Of a DNA stretch of 64,000 bases, positions 2,123-39,712 are shown piece after piece. The stretch spans positions 1-64,000 of the forward strand of contig JAKADY010000003.1 of the NCBI GenBank assembly GCA_021826065.1. Direction: 5' to 3'. The notes under the pieces were generated by a model, which saw nothing but the letters and a program-made list of their open reading frames with translations, was not told the origin of the DNA and did not search any database. The DNA comes from Pseudomonadota bacterium. Its GTDB lineage: Bacteria; Pseudomonadota; Gammaproteobacteria; Burkholderiales; Thiobacillaceae. Both the position numbers and the translations under genes were made by a program. Positions within the stretch are counted from its first letter, which is position 1; each line of letters opens with the position of its first letter.

Positions 2123-3151
2123 ATGATCCCGAGCTGGAGTGAATACTTGCAAACCCACGGCGCCGTCGTGCTCGACGGCGTGGTCCAGCACTTCGGCGAT
2201 CCGGCCGCCGAGCTCGCCCACGCCCGCGACGCCCTGGTCCTGGCCGACCTGTCGCACTATGGCCTGATCGCGCTCACCGGCGAGGACGCCCAGACCTTTC
2301 TGCATGGCCAGATCACCAATGATCTGCGCGGACTCAGAGACGAGCGCGCGGTGTTCGCCGGCTACTGCTCGGCCAAGGGCCGGCTGCTCGCCGACTTCCT
2401 GGTCTTCCGCCGCGCGGACGAGCTGTATGTCATGCTTCCGCGGGCGCTGCGCGAGACGGTGCAGAAGCGCCTGGCCATGTTCGTGCTGCGCGCGCGGGTG
2501 CGGCTGGCCGACGCCTCGGATGCCTGGGTCATCCTCGGCTTGAACGGCGTCGGTGCCGACGCACTGGTGCGCGAACGTTACGGGCGAGTCCCCGACGCCC
2601 CCATGGACGTGGTGCAGGCCGCGGACGGCTGGGTGGTGCGACTGGGCGAGAGCCGCTTCGACGCCTTCGTCAACCCGCAGGCCGCCCCCGCGCTTTGGCA
2701 AAGCTGGACGGGCCAGGCCAGACCCGTCGGTGCCCCCGCCTGGGACTGGCTCACCATACGCGCCGGGGTGCCGGTCATCCTGCCCGCCACACAGGATCAC
2801 TTCGTGCCGCAGATGGTCAACCTGGAGGTCCTGGGCGGGGTGAGCTTCAACAAGGGCTGCTATCCCGGTCAGGAGATCGTCGCGCGCAGCCATTATCTGG
2901 GCAAGCTCAAACGCCGCATGTATCTGGCCCACGTCGAGGCCGAGACGGCGGCCGGTGCCGAACTTTACAGCCCGGAGCTGCCAGGCCAGTCCTGTGGCCT
3001 GGTGGTCAATGCCGCACCGGCCCCGGCGGGGGGCACGGACGTGCTGGCGGTGATGCAGGTGTCGAGCCACGATGCGGGTGAGATTCATCTCGGCAGCCCC
3101 GATGGGCCGCGCCTGGTCTTCCAGCCGCTGCCCTACGAACTGCCGGCCTGA
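2123..3151 (+). CDS. ygfZ: folate-binding protein YgfZ
   Basis: YgfZ is a GcvT-like tetrahydrofolate-binding protein that supports assembly or repair of iron-sulfur enzymes such as MiaB. The family signature KGCYPGQE with its functional cysteine is present around residue 245, within NKGCYPGQEIVAR. The frame extends upstream to 2075, but ATG 2123 (MIPSWSEYL) gives the usual 342-residue length. Downstream DUF4936 and slmA follow closely on the same strand; this order is familiar from betaproteobacteria. Confidence 0.92.
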   Translation: MIPSWSEYLQTHGAVVLDGVVQHFGDPAAELAHARDALVLADLSHYGLIALTGEDAQTFLHGQITNDLRGLRDERAVFAGYCSAKGRLLADFLVFRRADELYVMLPRALRETVQKRLAMFVLRARVRLADASDAWVILGLNGVGADALVRERYGRVPDAPMDVVQAADGWVVRLGESRFDAFVNPQAAPALWQSWTGQARPVGAPAWDWLTIRAGVPVILPATQDHFVPQMVNLEVLGGVSFNKGCYPGQEIVARSHYLGKLKRRMYLAHVEAETAAGAELYSPELPGQSCGLVVNAAPAPAGGTDVLAVMQVSSHDAGEIHLGSPDGPRLVFQPLPYELPA

Positions 3152-3486: not shown

Positions 3487-4082
3487 GCCGCCAGCCGGGC
3501 GAGCGCCGCCAGCAGATCCTGCAGGCCCTGGCGCAGATGCTGGAGGAGCCACAGCCCGAGAAGATCACCACGGCGGCGCTAGCACAGCGGCTGCAGGTCT
3601 CGGAGGCGGCCCTCTACCGCCATTTCGCGAGCAAGGCGCAGATGTACGAGGGCCTCATCGAGTTCATCGAGCAGGCCCTGTTCACCCGTATCAACCGCAT
3701 CGTCAGCGAGGAGGCACAGGGCGTGCGCCAGCTCTACGCCATCCTGACCCTGCTGTTGGCCTTCGCCGAGAAGAATCCCGGCATGACCCGCGTGCTGGTG
3801 GGGGAGGCCCTGGTGCACGAGAACGAGCGGCTGCAGGCGCGCGTGAATCAGCTGCACGACCGGCTCGAGGCGGTGCTGCGCCAGAGCCTGCGCATCGCCG
3901 CCAGCCAGCAGGCCGCCGCCGTCCCCCAGGACGCCACGGCGGCGCATGCCAACGCCCTCATCTGCTTCGTGCTGGGCCGCTGGCACCAGTTCGCGCGCAG
4001 CGGCTTCAAGCGCCTGCCGACCGAATACTGGCAGGCCCAGGCGGCCTGGTTACTGCCCCCAGCGTACGGCTTGGGTGAATGA
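3483..4082 (+). CDS. slmA: nucleoid occlusion factor SlmA (TetR fold)
   Basis: SlmA binds chromosomal SBS sites and blocks FtsZ assembly over the nucleoid. The TetR-type HTH with VSEAALYRHFASK is near residues 35-48, followed by the SlmA-like LIEFIEQALFTRIN stretch and a C-terminal FARSGFKRLPTEYW segment similar to the E. coli protein. Starting at ATG 3483, which overlaps the DUF4936 stop, it is 199 residues, normal for SlmA. An in-frame upstream start at 3462 lies inside DUF4936 and is less likely. Confidence 0.9.
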   Translation: MSRQPGERRQQILQALAQMLEEPQPEKITTAALAQRLQVSEAALYRHFASKAQMYEGLIEFIEQALFTRINRIVSEEAQGVRQLYAILTLLLAFAEKNPGMTRVLVGEALVHENERLQARVNQLHDRLEAVLRQSLRIAASQQAAAVPQDATAAHANALICFVLGRWHQFARSGFKRLPTEYWQAQAAWLLPPAYGLGE

Positions 4083-4130: not shown

Positions 4131-4895
4131 CTACCGCCCACTGTCCTCTGCCCCCTGACAGACGGGACATCCCGGGTCACGCCTGACCCGGATCGCGCGC
4201 CACTGACCGGCCAGACTGTCGATCAGCAGAAGGCGTCCGCTGAGGCTCTGGCCGACGCCCAGGAGGAGCTTGAGGGCCTCGGCGGCCTGGAGGCTGCCCA
4301 CCACCCCGACCAGGGGGGCGAAGACGCCGAACTCGGCGCAGCGCATCTCGCCGGTGTCTGCCTCCGCGGGGAACAGGCAGGCGTAACAGGGGGCGTCGGG
4401 CTGGCGCCGGTCGAACACGCTCACCTGGCCATCGAAGCGAACCGCGGCACCCGAGACGAGCGGCCGCCGGTGGGCCACACAGGCGGCGTTGACGGCATAG
4501 CGGGTGGTGAAGTTGTCGCTGCAGTCGAGCACGACGTCCGCCTCCCCAACCGCAGCGTCCAGGGCCTCACCCGCCAGCCGGGTCTCCAGCGGCAGGATGC
4601 TCACCTCAGGGTTCATCGCCTGCATGCGGCGCGCGGCCGAGCGGGCCTTGTTCACCCCCAGGCTCGTCATGTCGTGGGCGATCTGCCGCTGCAGGTTGGT
4701 CAGGTCCACGTCGTCGTGGTCGGCCAGGGTGATGCGGCCTACCCCGGCCGCGGCGAGATAGAGGGCCGCCGGCGAGCCCAGCCCGCCGGCGCCGACGATC
4801 AGGGCATGCGCGCCGAGCAACCGTGCCTGCCCCTCGATGCCGATCTCGTTGAGCAGGATGTGGCGCGAGTAACGCAGGAGTTGCTGGTCATCCAT
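4131..4895 (-). CDS. moeB: MoeB/ThiF/HesA-family E1-like adenylyltransferase
   Basis: ThiF-fold enzyme that adenylates the C-terminal glycine of MoaD or ThiS-like sulfur carriers in molybdopterin or thiamine synthesis. It shows the ATP-binding glycine motif VGAGGLGSPAALYLAAAGVG, the DxDxVxxxNLQRQ motif, the DCSDNFTTRY block, and zinc-type CxxC pairs (CYAC and CPVC). The TTG at 4913 lengthens it by six residues, but ATG 4895 (MDDQQLLRYSRH) matches the family. The 254-residue length is typical of bacterial MoeB without a rhodanese domain. Confidence 0.9.
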   Translation of the reverse strand: MDDQQLLRYSRHILLNEIGIEGQARLLGAHALIVGAGGLGSPAALYLAAAGVGRITLADHDDVDLTNLQRQIAHDMTSLGVNKARSAARRMQAMNPEVSILPLETRLAGEALDAAVGEADVVLDCSDNFTTRYAVNAACVAHRRPLVSGAAVRFDGQVSVFDRRQPDAPCYACLFPAEADTGEMRCAEFGVFAPLVGVVGSLQAAEALKLLLGVGQSLSGRLLLIDSLAGQWRAIRVRRDPGCPVCQGAEDSGR

Positions 4896-28537: not shown

Positions 28538-28554
28538 ATGCAACTGTGTTGCAT
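28538..28554. promoter_or_regulatory. 17-bp palindrome, candidate Zur operator, ahead of cobW-like gene
   Basis: ATGCAAC (28538-28544), spacer TGT, GTTGCAT (28548-28554): perfect 7-bp arms. The right arm contains TTGCAT, which with TAAACT (28571-28576) 16 bp later forms a plausible promoter, so the palindrome would cover the -35 box. The same palindrome with a different spacer occurs at 30415-30431. Confidence 0.65.
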
Positions 28555-28615: not shown

Positions 28616-29692
28616 GTGCTGACCGCCAGCCACCGCATCCCCGTCACCCTGCTCACCGGCTTTCTGGGCAGCGGCAAGACGACGCTGCTCAACCGCATCC
28701 TGCGCGAGCGCCCGCTCACCGCCGTGGTGATGAACGAGTTTGGCGAGGTCGCCCTCGACCACCAGTTGGTGGAGGGCGTCCAGGGCCCGCTCGCCCTACT
28801 TGGCGGCGGCTGTGTGTGTTGCCAGGTGCAGGGCGACCTGGCGCCGGCGCTGAAGAACTTGTGGATGGGGCGCGCCGGCGGACAGGTGCCGAGGTTCGAG
28901 CGCTTGGTCATCGAGACCACGGGTCTTGCCGACCCCGCCGCGGTGCTCGCCACCCTGGTGCAGGACCGCTGGCTTGCCCGTCATTACGACCTCGATGGCG
29001 TGGTGACCACGGTGGACGCCCAGTTGGGGGCGGACAGCATTGCCCGCCACCGCGAGGCCCAACGCCAGGCGGCGGTGGCCGACCGGCTGGTGGTGACCAA
29101 GACGGACCTGGTGCCGCAAGAGACGCTGGACGCCTTGCGGGAGACCTTGCGGCGGCTCAATCCTCAGGCCCCCATCGTCGCCGGCCGCACGGCAGACCTC
29201 GACATCGCCCCGCTCGTGAGCATCGGCGGCTGGCAGCCCAAGACCGACCCCGCCGCGGTGCGTGCCTGGCTGGCCGTGTCGCGGGCGGACGCCGCACCGT
29301 CGCGGCTGCTGTCCCGGCCGGTGGCCGCCCATAGCGAGCGCATCCGCAGCTTCAGCCTGCGTTTTGACGAGCCGCTGCACTGGGAGGGGCTGGAGGCCGC
29401 GCTGGGCATGCTGGTCGACTTCCGCGGGCCGCAGCTGCTGCGCATGAAGGCCATCGTCAACGTCGCCGGGCGCGAGCGGCCGGTGGTGCTGCACGGGGCA
29501 CAACACGTCTTCTACCCGCCGCAGGAGTTGCCGCGCTGGCCGGATGCCGATCGCGCCAGCCGCTTCGTGTTCATCACCGAGGGCATCGAGCCGGCGCTCA
29601 TCGACCGCATACTCAGGGAATTCAGCCAGGCGGCGCGCGACGGCCTGATCGAGCGGGTGCACAACGCGAGCGCCAAGACGCTCATGACTTGA
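28616..29692 (+). CDS. COG0523 (CobW/YeiR-like) metallochaperone GTPase
   Basis: G3E-family GTPase of 358 residues. P-loop [12 protein letters not shown] is at about 15-26, the metal-binding GGGCVCCQV (CxCC) at about 63-71, ETTGLADP at about 100-107, the G4 motif VVTKTDL at about 160-166, and a CobW_C domain covers about 240-350. Such proteins hand zinc or other metals to client enzymes, often under Zur control. GTG start 28616. The adjacent regulator and transporters make zinc the likely metal (inference). Confidence 0.9.
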
Positions 29693-29934
29693 GGAGAACG
29701 CCATGCAATTGCCAGAACGCCGCCGGCCACGAGCCGCCACAGCACTGCGCTGCCGTCGGCGCTGTCGAAGGCATGGCAGCCCACGTCCACCTGCGTGTCC
29801 TGGCCCCGTTGCGTGTGGCGCTGCTGCACGCGGCGGCGGGCGCACACAAATCACCACGCCTCGGTCTTGCCCGAGCGGTATTGTGGATTTTGAGGCCGAC
29901 TGGGAGCTGCCACGGACCCGAGCCGCGCACACCG
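29693..29934. other. 242-bp stretch between cobW-like gene and zur, possible gene remnant
   Basis: A ribosome-binding site GGAG stands eight bases before ATG 29703, but the frame that follows (to 29951) reads as Arg/Pro-rich sequence without protein character. On the minus strand a short high-GC3 hydrophobic segment (AVLWRLVAGGVLAIAW, about 29700-29750) looks more protein-like. I regard the stretch as an eroded gene or non-coding leader of zur, not a real CDS. Confidence 0.35.
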
Positions 29935-30381
29935 ATGTCACAGCGCAGTGACCCGGAAGACGACTTGCTCGCAATGGCTGAGCGCCATATCCGCGCGTAT
30001 GGCCGGGTGACGCCGGCGCGGGTGCGGGTGCTCGGACTGCTGCTGGCGGCCGAGAGCGCCCTGACCCACGCCGAGCTGGAGGCACGGCTGGCGGGCGTGG
30101 ACAGGGTCACCCTCTATCGCGTGCTGGAATGGCTGGTGCAACACGGCCTCGTCCACCGCATCGCCGGCGATGAGCGGGTGTGGCGCTTCAGTGCCACACC
30201 CGGCGCCGGCGTCCAACACGGTCACGAACATGCCCATTTCCATTGCGAAGGCTGCGGCCGCACCTACTGCCTGGACGCCTTGCGCCCGGTCTTTGCCCTC
30301 AGCCTGCCGGCCGGGTTCCGCTGCCGCGCAGCGGAGCTGACCTTGTACGGGCAGTGTCCGCGCTGCAATCAGCCGGCGTGA
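29935..30381 (+). CDS. zur: Fur-family zinc regulator (Zur-like)
   Basis: A 148-residue Fur-superfamily regulator. The winged helix includes GVDRVTLYRVLEWLVQHGLVHRI (about 50-72). Metal sites: the His-rich HGHEHAHFHCEGC (about 100-112) and paired CxxC motifs CEGC and CPRC for structural zinc. Assignment to Zur rather than Fur or PerR rests mainly on context: COG0523 GTPase upstream, zinc transporters downstream. The frame is open upstream of ATG 29935, but the domain begins here. Palindromes at 28538 and 30415 are its likely targets. Confidence 0.85.
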   Translation: MSQRSDPEDDLLAMAERHIRAYGRVTPARVRVLGLLLAAESALTHAELEARLAGVDRVTLYRVLEWLVQHGLVHRIAGDERVWRFSATPGAGVQHGHEHAHFHCEGCGRTYCLDALRPVFALSLPAGFRCRAAELTLYGQCPRCNQPA

Positions 30382-30414
30382 ACGGTCTCATGCGCAGGGA
30401 TGGGGCGGGACTAT

Positions 30415-30431
30415 ATGCAACATGGTTGCAT
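30415..30431. promoter_or_regulatory. 17-bp palindrome, second candidate Zur operator
   Basis: ATGCAAC (30415-30421), spacer ATG, GTTGCAT (30425-30431), identical arms to the site at 28538. TATATG just upstream (30412-30417) overlaps its left arm and could be a -10 box. The next start codon, of the chimeric gene, is 24 bp downstream; the whole transporter series follows on the same strand. Confidence 0.65.
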
Positions 30432-30454
30432 TTCGGTGGTGGCAGTGAACCGAC

Positions 30455-31261
30455 ATGACCCTGCTTGCCATCCTTACCGCCACCCTGCTCAGCGGCGTGG
30501 CCTCCGTGCTGCTGGCCGCCGGTTGTTCGCGCGCACGGGCGCTCGCCTTCAATGCCCTGTCCGGGCTGGGGTTGGTGTTGGGCGGCGTCGCCGGTTATCT
30601 GGTCCTGGGCGCGAGCCGCGAGGTCCTGCCCTGGGCGCCCACACTGGCGGCGGCGAGCTTCCTATATCTCGCGGTGGCCGATCGGCTGCCTGCGCTCAAC
30701 CGGCAGCGGGCGCCGGGCGATGCCGCCATCCAACTCACCACGCACGGGCGGGTGCCGCTCGACCGGGTGCTCGATACGGGCCTGTTCGATTTCGACCAGG
30801 CGGCGCAGGCCCCCGGCTGGCTCAAGGAGCTGCGCGGCGAACACGTGCCGGAGACCGAGGAGTACGGCATCGCCAGCTTCGTCTACCGCGCCCGCTGCCC
30901 TTTCCATCCGCGCCGTTTCTGGGACTGGATCCACACCGACTGGCCCGGCGTCATCCGCGCCAAGGGCTGGTTCTGGCTGGCCAGCCGCCCCGAGTGGGCC
31001 GGGGTCTGGTCGCTCGCCGGCAGCACCCGCGAGCACGGCGCCGCCGGCCTGTGGCCGGAGGGCGAGGATAGCGCCGGCCGCTTGCGTCGCGACGGCCGCC
31101 AGGAGATCGTCCTGATCGGCATCGGCATGAACGAGGATGAGCTGACGGCCTGCTTCGACGCCTGCCTGCTCGATGATGCCGAGATGGCCTTGGGCGAGGC
31201 CGGCTGGCGGCGCTTCGACGATCCGTTTCCGGCCTGGGGCCGCGGCGAGGCGGCGGTATGA
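30455..31261 (+). CDS. chimeric ORF: partial ZIP transporter joined to C-terminal half of ZigA-type GTPase
   Basis: A 268-residue frame made of parts of two zinc protein families. Residues 1-25 resemble ZIP helix 1; residues 26-85 resemble later ZIP helices (FNALSGLGLVLGG and FLYLAVADRLPALNRQ), so the segment that normally holds the HxxxE metal-binding helices is missing. From about residue 92 (HGRVPLDRVLDTG) to the end it matches the C-terminal half of ZigA/YciC GTPases (VPETEEYGIASFVYRAR, WPGVIRAKGWFWLA), with no P-loop or CxCC. It is uninterrupted and sits behind a Zur-type palindrome. It may be an expressed membrane-tethered CobW_C protein or a relic of two deletions. Confidence 0.7.
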   Translation: MTLLAILTATLLSGVASVLLAAGCSRARALAFNALSGLGLVLGGVAGYLVLGASREVLPWAPTLAAASFLYLAVADRLPALNRQRAPGDAAIQLTTHGRVPLDRVLDTGLFDFDQAAQAPGWLKELRGEHVPETEEYGIASFVYRARCPFHPRRFWDWIHTDWPGVIRAKGWFWLASRPEWAGVWSLAGSTREHGAAGLWPEGEDSAGRLRRDGRQEIVLIGIGMNEDELTACFDACLLDDAEMALGEAGWRRFDDPFPAWGRGEAAV

Positions 31262-31310
31262 CTTAGAATGGACGCCGCACGAAGCGGCGCATTATGTAAG
31301 GAGACTTCAC

Positions 31311-31829
31311 ATGCGTTTCCCGTTGGTCTTCCTTCTTGGCCTGGGCATCGGCCTGGCCCACGCCCCCTGCCCGGCGCACGCGCACGGCGCCCACCAGCAC
31401 GGCGTGGCGCAGCTGATGGTGGCGGTGGAGGGGCCGACGCTGACCCTCCGCCTGGAAAGCCCCTTGGACAATCTGCTCGGCTTCGAGCGTGCGCCGCGCA
31501 CCGAAAAAGAGCGCGCCGCCGCCGAGGCGCTGCTCGGACGGCTCAAGCGCGGCGAAGGGCTGTTCGCCCTGACACAGGCGGCGGAGTGCGCGTTGGCCTC
31601 GGCGACGGTGGACGCGCCGGTGCTGCAGGGGGGTAAGGCGGCGGCGGGGCATGCCGACCTTGCCGCGGAGTGGCGCTATTCCTGCCGCGCGCCGGATAAG
31701 CTTACGGGGCTGCGGGTGCTGTTGTTCAGGGACTATAAGCGTCTCACCCGCCTGGAGGCGGCCGTGGCCGGCCCGCGCGGTCAGCGTGCGGCGCGCCTGA
31801 GCGCGCGCGCGCCGGATCTCGCCTGGTAG
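31311..31829 (+). CDS. ZrgA-like DUF2796 periplasmic zinc protein
   Basis: A 172-residue exported protein with a signal peptide (residues 1-24) followed by a His-rich mature N-terminus, HAHGAHQHGVAQLMVAVEG, characteristic of DUF2796. ZrgA of Vibrio, the founding example known to me, is the periplasmic part of the ZrgABCDE zinc uptake system. ATG 31311 has AAGGAG eight bases before it. The ABC ATPase, permease and DUF3299 genes that follow complete a Zrg-like set. Confidence 0.82.
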   Translation: MRFPLVFLLGLGIGLAHAPCPAHAHGAHQHGVAQLMVAVEGPTLTLRLESPLDNLLGFERAPRTEKERAAAEALLGRLKRGEGLFALTQAAECALASATVDAPVLQGGKAAAGHADLAAEWRYSCRAPDKLTGLRVLLFRDYKRLTRLEAAVAGPRGQRAARLSARAPDLAW

Positions 31830-31833
31830 CGCC

Positions 31834-32541
31834 GTGTCCCTCGTCGAACTCACCGACCTCCGCTACGCCTGGCCACGGCAAAGGCCCTGTCTGGAGATCG
31901 GGCACTTCGCCCTGGCAGCGGGCGAGACGGTCTTCCTGCATGGTCCATCCGGGTCGGGCAAGAGCACCCTGCTCGCCCTCATCGCCGGGGTCAACGTCGC
32001 CGGTACGGGGCAGGTGCGGGTGCTGGGCGAGGACCTGGCACGGCTGTCCCCCAGCGGGCGCGACCGCTTCCGGGTGGACCACATCGGCATCGTCTTCCAG
32101 CAGTTCAACCTGCTGCCCTATCTCAGCGTCCTGGAGAACGTCCTGCTGCCCTGCCGCTTCTCTGCCCTGCGGCGGCAGCGGGCGCAGGCGGAGGGCGGCC
32201 GGCCCGAGGCGGCGGCCCGGAGGCTGCTGGCGGGGCTGGATCTGGCGCCCGAGCTGTGGGAGCGGCCGGCCAGCCGTCTTTCGGTGGGACAACAGCAGCG
32301 GGTGGCGCTCGCCCGGGCGCTCATCGGCCGTCCGGCGCTGATCCTGGCCGACGAGCCCACCTCGGCCCTGGATGCGGCGCGGCAGCGCGCCTTTCTCGAG
32401 CTGCTCACCGAGGAGTGCAAGCGCGCCGGCGCCGGGCTGCTCTTCGTCAGCCATGACCTGCGCCTGGCCGAACGCTTTGGCCGGGTGGAGGATTTGACCC
32501 GGCTCAATCGCGCCCAGGCGGAGGCGGCATGCGCGGCCTGA
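31834..32541 (+). CDS. ABC transporter ATP-binding protein of Zrg-like system
   Basis: LolD/MacB-type ATPase of 235 residues. Walker A GPSGSGKST (about 37-45), Q-loop FQQFNLLPYLSVLENVLLP, signature LSVGQQQRVALARAL, Walker B LILADEPTSALD and the switch His in FVSHDL are intact. GTG start four bases after the zrgA-like gene stop; its end overlaps the permease start by 13 bp, so the two are translationally coupled. The signature reads LSVGQ instead of LSGGQ. Confidence 0.9.
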   Translation: MSLVELTDLRYAWPRQRPCLEIGHFALAAGETVFLHGPSGSGKSTLLALIAGVNVAGTGQVRVLGEDLARLSPSGRDRFRVDHIGIVFQQFNLLPYLSVLENVLLPCRFSALRRQRAQAEGGRPEAAARRLLAGLDLAPELWERPASRLSVGQQQRVALARALIGRPALILADEPTSALDAARQRAFLELLTEECKRAGAGLLFVSHDLRLAERFGRVEDLTRLNRAQAEAACAA

Positions 32542-33797
32542 GTGCCTTGCTCGCGCTGGCGTTCAGGAGCGCCTGGAACCGGCGCTTGACCCTGGGCCTG
32601 ACCCTCACGGCCGTGTGCCTGTCCGTGACCCTGCTGCTCAGCATCGAACGGCTGCGCGTCGATGCGCGCACGAGCTTCACCCAGGCCGTCTCCGGCACCG
32701 ACCTCATCGTCGGCGCCCGCGCCAGCCCCTTGCAGCTCCTGCTCTATGCCGTCTTTCGCGTCGGCGGCGCCACCCAGGAGATCGGTTGGGAGGCGGCCGC
32801 GGCGATAGATCGCCACCCGGCCGTGGCCTGGACCCTGCCGCTCGCCCTGGGCGACAGCCATCGCGGTTTTCCCGTCCTGGGCACGCCGGCTCGCTATTTC
32901 GAGGTGTTCCGCTATGGCGACCGGCAGCCGCTCGTCTTCGCCGCCGGCCGGCCCTATGCCGGCCTGTACGAGGCAGTGCTGGGGGTGGAGGTGGCCGAGC
33001 GGCTCGGCTACCAGGTCGGCGACCGCATCACCCTCGCCCACGGCGGCGGCGAATTCGCCCCGGAGCATGCCGACAAGCCCTTCACCGTGGTGGGGGTGCT
33101 CGCCCGCACCGGTACCCCGGTGGACCGCACCGTGCATGTCAGTCTGGAGTCCATCGAGGCGATCCATCTCGACTGGCAGGGCGGCGCGCCCATCCCCGGG
33201 CTCAACATCCCCCCCGAGCTGGCCACCAAGTTCGACCTCACGCCCAAGACAGTGACGGCCGTGCTGGTGGGGCTGAAGAGCCGCGCCCAGGTCTTCGCCA
33301 TGCAGCGCTGGGTCCAGGACTACCGGGCGGAGCCGCTCATGGCCGTGCTGCCAGGGGTGGCGCTGGATCAGCTCTGGGATCTGCTGGCCATAGGTGAACG
33401 CTCACTCTTGACGATATCAGCGCTGGTTGCCGGGGTGAGCCTGGTGGGTCTGGTCGCGGTGATCCTCGCCGGACTGAACGAGCGGCGCCGGGAGCTGGCC
33501 ATCCTGCGCTCGGTCGGGGCGGGGCCGCGGCGCGTGCTGTTCCTCCTGCTGCTGGAGGGGGCGGGGTTGACGCTGGCGGCCTGCGTGTTGGGCCTGCTTT
33601 TGAGCCTCGCCCTGGTGCTGGCCGTCGGCCCCTGGCTGGCGGCGTACTCAGGCATCCATCTGCAGCTGACGTGGCCGCATGCGGCGCAGTGGGCCTGGCT
33701 GGGCGCGGTCTTCGCCGTCGGCACCCTGGCGAGCCTGATCCCCGCCTGGCGGGCCTATCGACTCTCGCTGGCCGACGGGTTGACGCCGCATGTGTAA
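32529..33797 (+). CDS. FtsX/MacB-type ABC permease of Zrg-like system
   Basis: A 422-residue permease with one N-terminal helix (about 20-42), a large periplasmic domain (about 45-285) and three C-terminal helices (about 290-315, 330-365, 385-410), the FtsX/MacB topology. The sequence LNERRRELAILRSVGAGPRRVLFLLLLEG is the coupling-helix region. This architecture normally moves lipoproteins or works mechanically rather than importing ions, so its role in zinc handling is indirect or unknown; the DUF2796 and DUF3299 neighbours always suggest a zinc context. Confidence 0.88.
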   Translation: MRGLSALLALAFRSAWNRRLTLGLTLTAVCLSVTLLLSIERLRVDARTSFTQAVSGTDLIVGARASPLQLLLYAVFRVGGATQEIGWEAAAAIDRHPAVAWTLPLALGDSHRGFPVLGTPARYFEVFRYGDRQPLVFAAGRPYAGLYEAVLGVEVAERLGYQVGDRITLAHGGGEFAPEHADKPFTVVGVLARTGTPVDRTVHVSLESIEAIHLDWQGGAPIPGLNIPPELATKFDLTPKTVTAVLVGLKSRAQVFAMQRWVQDYRAEPLMAVLPGVALDQLWDLLAIGERSLLTISALVAGVSLVGLVAVILAGLNERRRELAILRSVGAGPRRVLFLLLLEGAGLTLAACVLGLLLSLALVLAVGPWLAAYSGIHLQLTWPHAAQWAWLGAVFAVGTLASLIPAWRAYRLSLADGLTPHV

Positions 33798-33807
33798 AAT
33801 CTGGGCC

Positions 33808-34398
33808 ATGCGCCTGACCCTCCTCGCCCTCGCTGCCCTGCTCGTCGCCTGCGAGCCCGCCACGGGGCAGGACTACAAGCTGGGCGAGAAGATCCGGCCG
33901 GCGCCATCGGCGCAGCGCCCGGCGGCCCCGCCGCAGGCCGGTGCGCCGCGCACCCTGACCTGGGACGACCTGCTGCCGCCCGACTGGGACCCCATGGCCG
34001 CGCTCAAGGGCCTGGACCTGGCCCGGCTGGACGATGCCGACCCGCGTGCGCAGAAGGCCCTGGAGGACTTGAAACGCGCCTGGGACAATGCGCCGCCCAA
34101 CCGGCAGTTGCATGGCCAGCGCATCCGCATCCCCGGCTTCGTCGTCTCCCTGGACGGCGGCCCCAAGGAGTTGCGCGAGTTCCTGCTGGTGCCCTATTTC
34201 GGTGCCTGCATCCACGTGCCGCCGCCCCCGCCCAACCAGGTGATCCACGCGGTGGCGCGCACCCCGGCCAAAGGGGTGCAGACCATGGATGCGGTCTGGG
34301 TCACGGGGCGCCTGGAGGTGGTGCGCTCCGACACCCCTTTCGGCTCGGCCACCTATGTGCTGCAGGCCGAGAGCGTTACCCCCTACAAGGGCAAATAG
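33808..34398 (+). CDS. DUF3299 lipoprotein
   Basis: A 196-residue exported protein with a lipobox, AALLVACEPA, Cys near residue 15. The DUF3299 core is clear: IRIPGFVVSLDGGPKELREFLLVPYFGACIHVPPPPPNQVI (described here only by its key blocks, PYFGACIH and PPPPPNQ). DUF3299 proteins accompany DUF2796/ABC clusters; their biochemical role is unknown to me. A frame start at 33790 exists but ATG 33808 begins the signal sequence. Spacing of 4 bp to the next small gene. Confidence 0.82.
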   Translation: MRLTLLALAALLVACEPATGQDYKLGEKIRPAPSAQRPAAPPQAGAPRTLTWDDLLPPDWDPMAALKGLDLARLDDADPRAQKALEDLKRAWDNAPPNRQLHGQRIRIPGFVVSLDGGPKELREFLLVPYFGACIHVPPPPPNQVIHAVARTPAKGVQTMDAVWVTGRLEVVRSDTPFGSATYVLQAESVTPYKGK

Positions 34399-34401
34399 GC
34401 C

Positions 34402-34686
34402 ATGACGCGTCTGCGCGCCTGGCTGCTCGCCCTGGTCCTGCTGTGGGCCCAGCTCGCCGCCGGTGTGCATGCGCTCGAACACCTGCACGACGCCGACGAT
34501 TCCGACCACCCGCCTTGCGAATGGTGTCTGGCCTTCCATGCCGTGCAGCACGGCGCCAGCGGTTCCTCGCTCGCCCTTCCTGCCAGCGACCGGACGACCA
34601 AGACACTGCCGCCGACACACATCGGCGCGCGATCGCCATTCTGCCCGCACTACCAAAGCCGCGCCCCGCCTCTGAACCTCGTCTGA
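34402..34686 (+). CDS. small secreted His/Cys-rich protein
   Basis: A 94-residue exported protein: signal peptide at residues 1-25 followed by HALEHLHDADDSDHPPCEWC, then FHAVQHG and a C-terminal FCPHYQ. Seven histidines and three cysteines in about 70 mature residues suggest metal binding. Similar short DUF2946-like proteins occur in copper and zinc loci, but I cannot assign it firmly. It lies 3 bp after DUF3299 and 66 bp before the outer-membrane protein gene. Confidence 0.65.
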   Translation: MTRLRAWLLALVLLWAQLAAGVHALEHLHDADDSDHPPCEWCLAFHAVQHGASGSSLALPASDRTTKTLPPTHIGARSPFCPHYQSRAPPLNLV

Positions 34687-34751
34687 GCCCGTGTCGCCTG
34701 CCCCTGTGAGGGTGGGTCAGTGCCTTTTCCTTTTCCAGACGAGGATCAGTC

Positions 34752-36206
34752 ATGCACGTCAAGTTCAAGCATTTGGCGGGTGCGCTCGCGCTCGCCGGCA
34801 TCATCACGCCGTCCCACGCCAACCCGGAGATCGACGCCTTGCGCGCAGAGATCGCGCAGATGCGGCAGCAATACGAGGCGCGCCTGGCAGAACTGGAGGC
34901 CAGGCTCAAGGACGCCGAAGGCCGTGCCGCGCCCGCCGCCCAGCCCACGGCGAGCGACCGCCTGGGTGCCCTCACCTCCGGTGCCGCCTTCAACCCGCAG
35001 ATCTCCGTCATCCTCGACGGGGTCTATTACCGTGACAACAAGAAGGGCAAGGGCCCCGAGCTCTATGCGCATCTCGACGGCATCAACCACAGCCATGGTG
35101 GACACGACCATGGGCATGAACTCGAGCGCGGCTTCAACCTGCGGCCCACGGAACTCGTCTTCTCGGCCACGGTGGACCCCTGGTTCGACGCCAACCTGAT
35201 GTTGACCGTCGACTCGCACGGCGGGGTGGAGCTGGAGCAGGCCTATTTCGACACGCGCAGCCTGCCCGCAGGGCTCAAACTCAGGGGCGGCAAGTTCTTT
35301 TCCGGCATCGGCTATCTCAACGACAAGCACCCGCACCAATGGGACTTCGTCGACCAGAACCTGCCCTATCGCACGCTGCTGGGCGAGCATGGGCTGATGG
35401 ACACCGGGCTGCAACTGACCTGGCGGCCGAAGACCGGCAGCCTCTACACCCTGCTGGGCGTGGAGGCCCTTCAGGGCAACGAGCAGCTCTTTGCTACGGC
35501 AGGCTTGGCCACGCCGACCTCACCACGCGCCGACGGCAGTCCTCTGGCACCCACACGCGCTGGCGAGCTCACTGGCAAGAAGGCCGGTCCACGCCTTTGG
35601 ACCGCTTTTGCCAAATTCGCCCCGACCCTGTCCGACGACCACGCCCTGCAATTGGGGGTCTGGGGCGGCTGGGCCAACCAGCATCAGGAGGTGCACGACC
35701 ATACCCTGGAGGATCCCGGCTCGCTCGTGCATGCCCTGGAGGGCAAGAGTCGGTTGTGGGGGCTGGATGCGGTGTACAAATTCGACGCCCCGGGTGCCTA
35801 TGGCGCCGGCGATTTCAGCCTGAACGCCGAGTATCTGCGCGAGGTGAAGGATTTGAGCATCGCCTTCCACGAAATCGGCAGCCGGGTGGGGCAGCCGCGC
35901 AAATTCACCCAGGACGGCTTCTACGTGCAAGGCGTTTACGGCTTCGCGCCACGCTGGCAGGCCGGCCTGCGCTACGACATCACGGGGTTGACCAGCAAGG
36001 TCGATGGCCCCGCCGGACGGCTCAGGGAATGGGACGACTCGAACCGGTGGTCTCTGGCGGTCACGCACCACTTCAGCGAGTTCTCGCGCCTGCGCCTGCA
36101 GGCGTCCAGCGCACGGCTTGCCGTCGATGGCAACCGCGAGCGGCTCAACGAGTTCTGGATCCAGTACCAGCTGAGCCTGGGCGCCCACGGCGCGCACAAG
36201 TTCTGA
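34752..36206 (+). CDS. zinc-island outer-membrane beta-barrel protein with His-rich loop
   Basis: A 484-residue outer-membrane protein. The signal peptide ends about residue 24 (SHANPE), a short coiled coil follows (about 25-55, ALRAEIAQMRQQYEARLAEL) as in OprP/OprO-type porins, then a barrel of alternating strands ending in a C-terminal aromatic (HGAHKF). A His-rich loop, HLDGINHSHGGHDHGHELE, lies at about residues 101-119. It is probably the outer-membrane entry for zinc or a zinc ligand in this locus (inference from loop and context); no TonB box or plug domain is visible. Confidence 0.75.
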   Translation: MHVKFKHLAGALALAGIITPSHANPEIDALRAEIAQMRQQYEARLAELEARLKDAEGRAAPAAQPTASDRLGALTSGAAFNPQISVILDGVYYRDNKKGKGPELYAHLDGINHSHGGHDHGHELERGFNLRPTELVFSATVDPWFDANLMLTVDSHGGVELEQAYFDTRSLPAGLKLRGGKFFSGIGYLNDKHPHQWDFVDQNLPYRTLLGEHGLMDTGLQLTWRPKTGSLYTLLGVEALQGNEQLFATAGLATPTSPRADGSPLAPTRAGELTGKKAGPRLWTAFAKFAPTLSDDHALQLGVWGGWANQHQEVHDHTLEDPGSLVHALEGKSRLWGLDAVYKFDAPGAYGAGDFSLNAEYLREVKDLSIAFHEIGSRVGQPRKFTQDGFYVQGVYGFAPRWQAGLRYDITGLTSKVDGPAGRLREWDDSNRWSLAVTHHFSEFSRLRLQASSARLAVDGNRERLNEFWIQYQLSLGAHGAHKF

Positions 36207-36219
36207 GGGGAGGGTGCCA

Positions 36220-37101
36220 ATGACCCGAGCATTCTGGGCAATCCTTCTCGCCCTGACCGCGCCGCTTGCCTGGGCGCTCAACGTGGTCGCCACCACCGCC
36301 AGCATGGGCATGCTGACGCGCAGCGTCGGCGGCCCCGGCGTGAACATCACGGTGCTGGCCCCACCCGATCGCGATCCGCATCAACTACAGGCCAAGCCCT
36401 CGATGATGCGGGCCCTGCGCGATGCCGATCTGGTGGTGGCGGTGGGGGCGGAGCTGGAGGCTGGTTGGCTGCCGGCGGCCCTCGACGCAGCGGCCAATCC
36501 CCGCGTGCTGCCCGGCCGCCTGGGCTATTTCGAGGCGGCGGCACAAGTGCCGCTGCTGGAGGCAGGGCTGCCGGCCGACCGCGCGCGCGGCGATGTCCAC
36601 CCCATGGGCAACCCGCACGTGCATCTGGACCCGCAGCGCATGGCCGACATCGCCCGCGCGCTGGCCGAGCGCTTGGCGCGCCTCAAACCCGAGCAGGCCG
36701 CCGATTTCCGCGCCCGCGCCGAGGGCTTTGCAGGCAGCGTGCAGGCGCGTCTGCCGGCCTGGCGGACGCAGGCAGCCGGCAGCGGCGGGGCGGTGCTCTA
36801 CCACAAGGACGGTGTCTATCTGCTCGACCGCCTGGGCCTGCCCCTGCTGGGCACCATAGAGCCCGTGCCGGGCGTCCCCCCCACTGCCCGACACCTGGCC
36901 GAACTGACCGATCGGCTGCGAGGCCGGCGCGGGGTGGTGCTCTATCACCCCTACCAACCCGCCCAGGGGCCGCAGCGGGTCGCCGAGGCCCTGGGGTGGA
37001 AGGCCATTGCCGTGCCCATGGAACCGCCGGTGAGCGCATCGGCTGAGGATTATTTCCGTCTCATCGACCAGTGGGTGGCCGCCCTGGTGCAGGCGAAATG
37101 A
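36220..37101 (+). CDS. znuA: zinc ABC transporter substrate-binding protein ZnuA-like
   Basis: Periplasmic cluster A-I binding protein of 293 residues with signal peptide (1-20). Expected metal ligands are seen: His in DRDPHQLQAKPSMM (about 48), His in GNPHVHLDPQRM (about 130-134), His in VLYHKDG and a late acidic or His position in VLYHPYQ. There is no long His-rich loop, unlike E. coli ZnuA. ATG 36220 has GGGGAGGG upstream. The stop overlaps znuC as ATGA. Confidence 0.85.
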   Translation: MTRAFWAILLALTAPLAWALNVVATTASMGMLTRSVGGPGVNITVLAPPDRDPHQLQAKPSMMRALRDADLVVAVGAELEAGWLPAALDAAANPRVLPGRLGYFEAAAQVPLLEAGLPADRARGDVHPMGNPHVHLDPQRMADIARALAERLARLKPEQAADFRARAEGFAGSVQARLPAWRTQAAGSGGAVLYHKDGVYLLDRLGLPLLGTIEPVPGVPPTARHLAELTDRLRGRRGVVLYHPYQPAQGPQRVAEALGWKAIAVPMEPPVSASAEDYFRLIDQWVAALVQAK

Positions 37102-37721
37102 ATCCCTGGCTGCGCCTCGAAGGGGTCGTCGCCGGCTACGGCCGGCCTGTGGTGGGCCCGGTGAGCCTGGAGCTCGGCCCCGGCGAGGTGCTGGGCCTGG
37201 CCGGGCCCAATGGCGCCGGCAAATCCACGCTGATCGCCGCCATCCTTGGCGAGGCGCCCGTCTTTGCCGGCCATGTGGAGCGCGCCCATGGCCTCACGGT
37301 GGCCCACCTGCCGCAGCGGCCGATCCGTCCCCTGGAGCTGCCGCTCACCGGGCAGGAATGGTTGCGCTGCATGGGTGTGAGTGCCGACGGGATGCCCGGC
37401 CATCTCGCCGGCATCCTCCAGCGCCGCATGGACCGGCTTTCCGGCGGCGAATTCCAGCTCCTGAGCCTGTGGGCGGCGCTCGCCGGGGCGGGCCAGTTGG
37501 TGCTGCTCGACGAGCCGACCAACAACTTGGACCCGGCCCATGTCCATCTGGCGGCAGAGGCGATCATGGCGCGGCGCGAGGCACGCGCCACCCTGCTCGT
37601 CAGCCACGACCAGGATTTTCTGCAACGGGTCTGCTCCCGTATCCTGACCCTTGGGGCCATGCGCGGGGGGGGACATGGATGCGGTCGGCAGCAGAGCGGG
37701 ACCACACATCCCCCGTCGTGA
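37098..37721 (+). CDS. znuC: zinc ABC transporter ATPase ZnuC-like
   Basis: A 207-residue ABC ATPase, somewhat shorter than E. coli ZnuC. Walker A GPNGAGKST (about 39-47), the Q-loop HLPQRP, signature LSGGEFQLLSLWAAL, Walker B LVLLDEPTNNLDP and switch His VSHDQDF are present. The last ~20 residues after ILTLGAM (GGGHGCGRQQSGTTHPPS) look untidy, and the stop overlaps the start of znuB. Translational coupling on both sides (ATGA with znuA, TGATG with znuB). Confidence 0.88.
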   Translation: MNPWLRLEGVVAGYGRPVVGPVSLELGPGEVLGLAGPNGAGKSTLIAAILGEAPVFAGHVERAHGLTVAHLPQRPIRPLELPLTGQEWLRCMGVSADGMPGHLAGILQRRMDRLSGGEFQLLSLWAALAGAGQLVLLDEPTNNLDPAHVHLAAEAIMARREARATLLVSHDQDFLQRVCSRILTLGAMRGGGHGCGRQQSGTTHPPS

Positions 37722-38518
37722 TGTTTTGGCCCATGGATGATTTCCTCTGGCCCTTCCTGGCAGGGCTGCCGCTGGCGCTCGCTCTGCCCCTGCTGGGCAC
37801 CCTGCTGCGGCTGCGCGACGAGTGGCTGGCCACCCTGGGCCTCGCCCACCTGGCCGCCGCTGCGGCCCTGGCCGGCATGGGGCTGGGCCTGGCCGCGGTC
37901 TGGGGGGCGCCGGTCGGCGCGATGCTCGGCGCCCTCGGCAAGACCCTTGCACGCCAGCGCAACAACAGCGTCTATGCCGTGATGATCCTCGGCGGCTGGT
38001 CGCTCATGCTGCTCATCGCCGCCAATAGCGCCTTGGGGCACGCCCTGGCCCAGGCCCTGGTGGATGGCCAGCTCTATTTCGCCGGCGACCGCGAGGCGTT
38101 CCTCGCCGCGACGGTGGCCCTGCTCTGTCTATGGGCCCTGCCCTGGCTCACGCCGCGGCTCATCCGCGCCCGCCTGCTGCCGAGCTTCGAACGCGCCAAT
38201 CACCTGCCCGCCTGGCGCTGGCACCTGGGCTTCGACCTCCTCGTGGCACTCACGGTTGCGGTGGCCACGGCGACCCTGGGCCTCATGGCCACCTTCGCCC
38301 TGGTCTTCGTGCCGGCCTGGTTGGCCTTCCGGCATGCCCCGAGCTGGCGGCGGGCCTGGCGGTTCAGCACCGGGGTCGGAATCGCCGCCTATGGCCTCGC
38401 CTTCGCCCTGGCCCTGGGCCTGGATCAGCCTTTCGGCCCCGTCCTGGTCCTGCTGCTGGTATCGGCTCTAATCCTTGACGGTTTTGTCCGCAGGGGGCCG
38501 CGGGATGCAGGGGTGTGA
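37721..38518 (+). CDS. znuB: zinc ABC transporter permease ZnuB-like
   Basis: Cluster 9 (ABC-3) metal permease of 265 residues with about eight hydrophobic segments. Recognisable parts: the first helix LAGLPLALALPLLGTLLRL, GLAHLAAAAALAGMGLG, and GAPVGAMLGALGK. ATG 37721 lies within the znuC stop (TGATG); ATG 37733 (MDDFLWPF) is an alternative. No good ribosome site precedes either, in line with coupling. A run of codons upstream stays open but lies within znuC. Confidence 0.85.
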   Translation: MFWPMDDFLWPFLAGLPLALALPLLGTLLRLRDEWLATLGLAHLAAAAALAGMGLGLAAVWGAPVGAMLGALGKTLARQRNNSVYAVMILGGWSLMLLIAANSALGHALAQALVDGQLYFAGDREAFLAATVALLCLWALPWLTPRLIRARLLPSFERANHLPAWRWHLGFDLLVALTVAVATATLGLMATFALVFVPAWLAFRHAPSWRRAWRFSTGVGIAAYGLAFALALGLDQPFGPVLVLLLVSALILDGFVRRGPRDAGV

Positions 38519-38528
38519 ACCGGATCAC

Positions 38529-38558
38529 TTGTCGGCGGCCGGACCTTGGGTCTAGTAT
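38529..38558 (+). promoter_or_regulatory. sigma-70-type promoter for STAS gene
   Basis: TTGTCG (38529-38534) and TAGTAT (38553-38558) with an 18-bp spacer, 26 bp before the GTG start. Confidence 0.55.
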
Positions 38559-38584
38559 CAAAGACCCGGCAGACGAGGTGACCC

Positions 38585-39712
38585 GTGTCCCTGTTCAACC
38601 TGTTCCGCAAAGACAAGGCCGAAGATTTTATGGCCTTCCTCAAGGAAGGCACGCCTGGGGCCAAGGAGGGACCGGAGGTCCGTGTGGGCCAGGACTCCGC
38701 CGCGGTCGAGGCCGGCATCGAGGTTCACGAGGCCGGCGGTGCCCTCGCCCCCGAGCTGGAGGAGGCCGCCGTGCTCTACGCCAACGGCAAGATCGGCGAG
38801 GCCGCCACGGTGCTCAACCGCTATCTCCTCGACAACCCGGACAACCGCGATCCGCAGCCCTGGTACATGCTGTTCGACCTGTACGAGGCGACGGGGCAGC
38901 TTGATCCCTTCGAGGACGCGGCGGTGGACTTCGCCGTCAAGTTCGAGCGCTCACCGCCCACCTGGGCGCCGCGCACCCAGACCCAACGCCAGGAGGCGAG
39001 CGCGCTGCCCTACATGGGCTTCGGCGCGAGCTTCGGCGCGGCCGACCGGGAGCGTCTCAAGCGCTTCATGCTGGAGGCCGCCTCCAAGCCGGCGGTGCGC
39101 GTGGAGGTGAGCCGCACACCGGTGCCGGACGAGGACTACATCCGCACCCTGCTCGACTGCCTGGTCAGGCTGCAGGAACAGGGTAAGGCCATCAAGCTGG
39201 TGGGTGGGGCCAACCTGATCGGCAAGCTCAACGCCCTGCGCGGCGAGGACAAGCTGAGCGAGCCCGGCTGGCTGCTGTTGCTCACCCTGCTGCAGCTGGA
39301 GGGCGACGAGGATGCGTTCGAGGACACGGCGGTGGACTATGCCGTGCGTTTCGAGGTCTCGCCGCCCTCCTACAGCCCGCCCAAGGTCCCGCAGGAGAGC
39401 CCGCAGACTGCACCGGTCGCGGAGCCTTCTGGCCTGACCTTCCCGCTCAAGGGCGTGGTCGGCGCCAGCGGTGACCCCCAGCTCGCCGAACTGCGCAGTT
39501 TCTGCCAGGACAAACCGCAGGTGGAGATCGACCTATCCCAGGTCACCCGCATCGAGTTCGCCTCGGTGGGGCTGCTGCTGGACACCCTGATCTCGCTGCA
39601 CGAGGCCGGCCACAAGATCCTTTTCAAGGAGGGCAACGAGCTGGTGAACGTGCTGCTCAACATGATCGGCGCCGGCCAGTACGCAGTGATCCTGGGGCGC
39701 ACACGGGTCTGA
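38585..39712 (+). CDS. STAS-domain protein, unknown
   Basis: A 375-residue cytoplasmic protein. The C-terminal ~85 residues (from GLTFPLKGVVGAS) are a STAS-like domain, with VEIDLSQVTRIEFASVGLLLDTLISL matching the SpoIIAA strand-helix; there is no clear phosphoacceptor Ser. The middle (about 55-280) contains two related helical units, each with FEDxAVDxAV(K/R)FExSPP, around residues 109-126 and 241-258, so it is internally duplicated. Homologues stand next to hslV in betaproteobacteria. GTG start. Confidence 0.7.
   Translation: MSLFNLFRKDKAEDFMAFLKEGTPGAKEGPEVRVGQDSAAVEAGIEVHEAGGALAPELEEAAVLYANGKIGEAATVLNRYLLDNPDNRDPQPWYMLFDLYEATGQLDPFEDAAVDFAVKFERSPPTWAPRTQTQRQEASALPYMGFGASFGAADRERLKRFMLEAASKPAVRVEVSRTPVPDEDYIRTLLDCLVRLQEQGKAIKLVGGANLIGKLNALRGEDKLSEPGWLLLLTLLQLEGDEDAFEDTAVDYAVRFEVSPPSYSPPKVPQESPQTAPVAEPSGLTFPLKGVVGASGDPQLAELRSFCQDKPQVEIDLSQVTRIEFASVGLLLDTLISLHEAGHKILFKEGNELVNVLLNMIGAGQYAVILGRTRV

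Follow-up and report, generated by a model that had tools for sequence, protein, structure and literature searches.

Within the window, the 64,000-nt stretch of DNA analysed here, one open frame joins pieces of a ZIP zinc transporter gene to the C-terminal part of a ZigA-type GTPase gene. Does this chimeric ORF encode a new kind of protein, or is it what deletions left of a zinc-starvation operon? An earlier note on the same DNA described a single uninterrupted frame behind a Zur-type palindrome, with ZIP pieces lacking the metal-binding helices, a ZigA C-terminal half lacking the GTPase domain and two junctions that had both kept the frame. It left the choice between a new family and the in-frame remains of two deletions, and proposed a structure prediction and a search for the same fusion in other genomes. 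Our analysis suggests that the chimeric ORF is most likely an evolutionary scar rather than a new kind of protein. The features of the locus are collected in Table 1.

Table 1. Features of the chimeric ORF and its surroundings in the window.
Feature	Position	Strand	Basis
Zur-type palindrome TGCAACTGTGTTGCA, upstream of the intact COG0523 gene (28616-29692)	28539-28553	+	Perfect copy
Fur-family regulator gene, probable zur, start codon not certain	29938-30381	+	Pfam FUR, E 8e-8; syntenic with L025 zur
Zur-type palindrome TGCAACATGGTTGCA	30416-30430	+	Perfect copy, upstream of the chimeric ORF
Chimeric ORF, 268 aa: ZIP pieces and ZigA C-terminal part	30455-31261	+	ORF, Pfam, NCBIfam, DNA alignment
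zip 5' piece: start codon and helix 1	30455-30519	+	Block 30454-30519, 80% DNA identity to L025 zip 3755-3820
Junction 1, imperfect direct repeat common to both zip pieces	30509-30519	+	Two alignment blocks overlap by 11 nt
zip 3' piece: end of helix 5, helices 6 and 7	30509-30720	+	74% DNA identity to L025 zip 4239-4450
Junction 2, zip to zigA	30721-30743	+	Gap between alignment blocks, ~1.55 kb missing
zigA 3' part with CobW_C	30738-31261	+	DNA identity 85% to L024 zigA, 83% to L025 zigA
zrgA, ABC ATPase, FtsX-type permease, DUF3299, small ORF, porin-like gene, znuA, znuC	31311-37721	+	Pfam for all but the small ORF and the porin-like gene

Frame, domains and predicted structure

The frame is open from the ATG at 30455 to the stop at 31261. 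Residues 1 to ~91 are ZIP-derived and come from the neighbouring, ZupT-like zip gene, and residues ~94-268 correspond to the C-terminal part of ZigA, with 87% identity to the copy at L024, a locus of the same genus. The Pfam CobW_C profile (PF07683) was matched in full (positions 1-94) by residues 139-238 (E 6e-22). The NCBIfam ZigA model (NF038288) matched residues 89-259 with its positions 203-390 of 390 at 215 bits, below the cut-off of 600. Model positions 1-202 were unmatched and Pfam found no PF02492 GTPase domain in the ORF, whereas ZigA has the whole domain. The match to the Pfam Zip profile (PF02535) was sub-threshold, with residues 14-79 covering positions 222-292 of 323, and its score of 18.7 bits against a cut-off of 35.1 leaves the ORF below the ZIP-family threshold. 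Of the transporter, helix 8 and helices 2-5 with the metal-binding motifs (HNFVDG and HELPQE in L025, a second locus of the same genus) are missing. The profile searches, together with DNA alignment to L025, thus bear out the earlier description of the frame and of both its halves.

The proposed structure prediction gave a divided result. It was made from ZigA alignment rows alone, because the ZIP rows were wrongly placed in alignments that combined fragments of both proteins. The CobW_C core was predicted with confidence (10-residue means of 87-96 over residues 141-180 and 221-260), but the ZIP-derived N-terminal part, with helices at residues 2-21, 25-50 and 61-83, was of low confidence. The best PDB structure matches of the model were to the E. 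coli GTPase YjiA (4ixm and 1nij, E ~1e-6), with a TM-score by query length of 0.30, and are attributed to the CobW_C domain, whose predicted core resembles YjiA. PDB sequence searches returned nothing useful. YjiA differs from the fusion in possessing a GTPase domain at its N-terminus and in lacking membrane helices. ZIP proteins cross the membrane with eight helices and have both termini outside. Since the loss of helices 2-5 keeps the ZIP parity, CobW_C would face the cytoplasm after three helices, and the positive loops CSRARA and NRQR, which follow helices 1 and 3, agree with a cytoplasmic CobW_C. This topology reasoning suggests that the protein, if made, would be a three-helix anchor carrying CobW_C on the cytoplasmic side.

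Two deletions seen against the L025 locus

At L025 (genome G003) the gene order is COG0523 GTPase, hisI paralogue, dsrE-like gene, zur, zip, DUF1826 and zigA. Zur-controlled clusters of COG0523 genes with DUF1826 and HisI paralogues have been described (PMC2770081), and the fusion sits in predicted Zur-controlled surroundings like those of ZigA. DNA alignment of the window with L025 gave three blocks, the last pairing window 30744-31240 with L025 6023-6519, and hence two junctions. At junction 1, the copies of the direct repeat read CTGCTGGCAGC and CTGCTCGCCGC in L025 and CTGCTGGCCGCC in the window, and both repeat copies code for LLAA in the same frame. The 429 nt (143 codons) between the copies have been deleted from zip in frame, together with the helices bearing HNFVDG and HELPQE. 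Deletion 2, of ~1.55 kb, took out the 3' end of zip, all of the DUF1826 gene and the first ~214 zigA codons, which encode the GTPase domain; no clear repeat was found at junction 2 in the alignment to L025. As judged from this alignment, the chimeric ORF derives from two deletions in a zur-zip-DUF1826-zigA order. The two frame-keeping junctions of the earlier note are thereby recovered, and of its two readings the alignment upholds the in-frame remains of two deletions, while the new-family reading gains no support, as the fusion is absent in relatives. The note had also been right that both the ZIP and ZigA genes had lost sequence, but it had missed the loss of a third gene, DUF1826.

The short repeat may have given rise to deletion 1, through either slippage or recombination. 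With the HNFVDG and HELPQE helices lost, zinc transport as a ZIP would be impossible for the product, and so would a GTP-driven metallochaperone role, the GTPase domain with its P-loop and CxCC region having gone. The missing parts were sought by sequence queries in the rest of the genome, a 74-contig draft of 2.74 Mb. Neither the ZigA N-terminus nor the zip middle nor DUF1826 was found there, and the queries met only paralogues: the intact COG0523 gene at 28616, with 37% identity, a ZIP paralogue of 44% on contig C40 and a weak ZIP match of 31%.

The open frame was discounted as proof of a gene, as other frames here stay open for almost as long: the region is 72% GC, and two other forward frames run through 218 and 204 codons without a stop. 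When random double deletions were simulated in L025, 23% of the products still read in the ZigA frame up to the ZigA stop codon. As about this proportion is expected by chance, the survival of the frame across both junctions is no evidence of selection.

The cluster in relatives and its Zur boxes

The proposed search for the same fusion found it only in the window genome, that is in 1 of 117 family genomes, in none of 67 GTDB loci and in none of 368 other genomes of the class. Matches at E 1e-18 were present in 15 of the 117 family genomes, and among the ZigA matches listed in the family, all but that of the window had an open frame of at least 389 aa. A single match spanning the ZIP and ZigA parts was seen among 369 class genomes, in the fusion's own genome. 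All that this absence in relatives shows is that the event is restricted to one lineage, that of the window. Several candidates were rejected. L034 and L036 (query residues 1-261 and 10-261 matched) encode full ZigA proteins of 409 and 412 aa, in which the alignment had extended into the GTPase domain. The short CobW_C ORF of G141 (L115 1476-2309), 277 aa long, belongs to zigA, starts within the GTPase domain and has no ZIP part; it adjoins two intact COG0523 genes and is probably frameshifted or mis-sequenced. In two further class members, the ZigA matches G446:C1:1075189-1075671 and G607:C4:1622281-1622790 are short or stop-bearing, with no ZIP part reported, which suggests that zigA decay happens elsewhere too. 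Literature searches, not aimed at such a fusion, brought up no report of a ZIP-CobW_C protein.

Within this genus, the same cluster has been eroded in other ways. At L024, zigA and zrgA come after zur, with neither zip nor DUF1826 in between, and in G002, a genome 92% complete, no match to zrgA, zigA or DUF1826 was found. Of the hisI paralogue, only the first 17 nt align to L025 (window 29703-29719), and the next ~215 nt, up to zur, are unassigned, so both this paralogue and the dsrE-like gene have also been lost in the window. No plasmid matched the stretch in their place (29720-29937), and Pfam recognised nothing in its forward ORF. The dsrE-like gene of L025 itself carries an extra GC-rich stretch of ~120 nt with inverted repeats (2960-3080) relative to L024, possibly a small mobile-element insertion.

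The Zur-type palindrome reported before the ORF is indeed there as a perfect copy. TGCAACATGGTTGCA and TGCAACTGTGTTGCA are the only two perfect copies of TGCAACNNNGTTGCA in the 2.74-Mb genome, and a reversed-pattern control gave 0. With up to two mismatches allowed, 2 boxes were found in the window against 1.76 expected by chance; because this count equals chance, the weight rests on both boxes being perfect and on conservation. Tandem boxes ~39 bp apart lie just upstream of intact zip at L026, L028 and L029, and a one-mismatch box lies upstream of zigA at L024. Since boxes are conserved before zip in relatives, the box 5' of the fusion is probably an old zip promoter element, and its sequence makes it a putative Zur binding site. 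The best NCBIfam match of the Fur-family regulator was Zur PRK11639, under that model's cut-off. The downstream zinc genes follow with gaps of -31 to 65 nt, no further Zur box was found in the window downstream of the box before the ORF, and no sigma-70-like promoter was matched in 30300-38600. The chimeric ORF and the downstream zrg/znu genes may thus share one transcript, in which the ORF would come first behind a Zur box serving those genes. The ABC ATPase and FtsX-type permease genes (31834-33797) lie between zrgA and DUF3299, which are directly adjoining at L024; either the window lineage acquired the pair or L024 lost it.

Constraint on CobW_C and the readings of the ORF

Selection on the CobW_C part (~170 codons, nine taxa) was estimated on one fixed tree using a purpose-written codon model rather than a published package. 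Omega was 0.04 on the window branch compared to 0.11 for the background, an omega of 1 was rejected for the window branch (LRT 19.8), and the likelihood profile gave an upper limit of ~0.105. The branches to L024 and L025, loci where ZigA is whole, behaved alike, each with an omega of 0.06. The zip part (71 codons) was too short for an omega, and the estimate for the intact L025 zip was unstable as well. The window branch includes time before the deletions; from the profile we estimate that neutral evolution, had selection ended with the deletions, could fill no more than roughly 7% of the branch. The strong constraint therefore means that the event was recent, that CobW_C is still used, or that the contig is wrong.

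We consider it probable that two separate, recent deletions in a Zur-controlled zip-DUF1826-zigA operon left the ORF as their in-frame scar. This reading draws on the blocks shared with L025, the repeat, the gene order, the absence of the missing parts elsewhere, the uniqueness of the fusion and the chance retention of the frame, as well as on the other erosion of the cluster (the hisI remnant, L024 and G002). Counted against it are the intact Zur box and frame and, given the constraint on the window branch, the fact that a useless ORF would require a recent event; a recent event would also account for an ORF that is still clean. The rejection of neutral CobW_C evolution (LRT 19.8) could alternatively reflect a functional new protein: a CobW_C module anchored in the membrane and repressed by Zur, which would employ the ZigA surface that binds clients or metal, would hydrolyse no GTP and might be held close to the zinc importer. 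Its confident, YjiA-like core would fit such a role, as would the intact frame, start codon and Zur box and the ZIP-based parity that places CobW_C in the cytoplasm. However, the fusion is unique to one genome and has no GTPase domain, the constraint may predate the deletions, and the 71 zip codons give no information on selection; we regard a functional protein as rather unlikely. That the two deletions made a zinc-starvation protein which was then selected, with a ZIP-derived three-helix anchor holding a GTPase-free CobW_C at the inner membrane beside the Zrg/Znu import products, we regard as unlikely.

The uniqueness of the fusion, the draft state of the genome and a CobW_C constrained like an intact gene would also be expected if assembly or strain mixture had produced the contig and the true genome had intact zip, DUF1826 and zigA. 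Such an artefact appears improbable, as the junctions lie ~220 nt apart and share at most ~11 nt of sequence, by our reasoning far below usual assembly word lengths, and other losses occur in the same cluster in the window and in relatives. Finally, translation of the ORF might prevent early termination of the zrg/znu transcript, the protein itself being useless. The position of the ORF as the first after the Zur box, the small gene gaps downstream and the lack of a further box in the window or of a sigma-70-like promoter match in the range searched agree with a translated leader, but this would not alone preserve the CobW_C amino-acid sequence, which makes it very improbable.

The in-frame scar is thus an unusual product of an ordinary process, and its novelty is an arrangement of known parts, not a demonstrated function. 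As a scar, the locus is a clear case of the in-place erosion of a zinc-starvation operon. It would likewise illustrate how short-repeat deletions create chimeric open frames in GC-rich genomes, and relatives are needed before such frames are called new proteins. If the product does work, it would be a natural test of the role of CobW_C without the GTPase.
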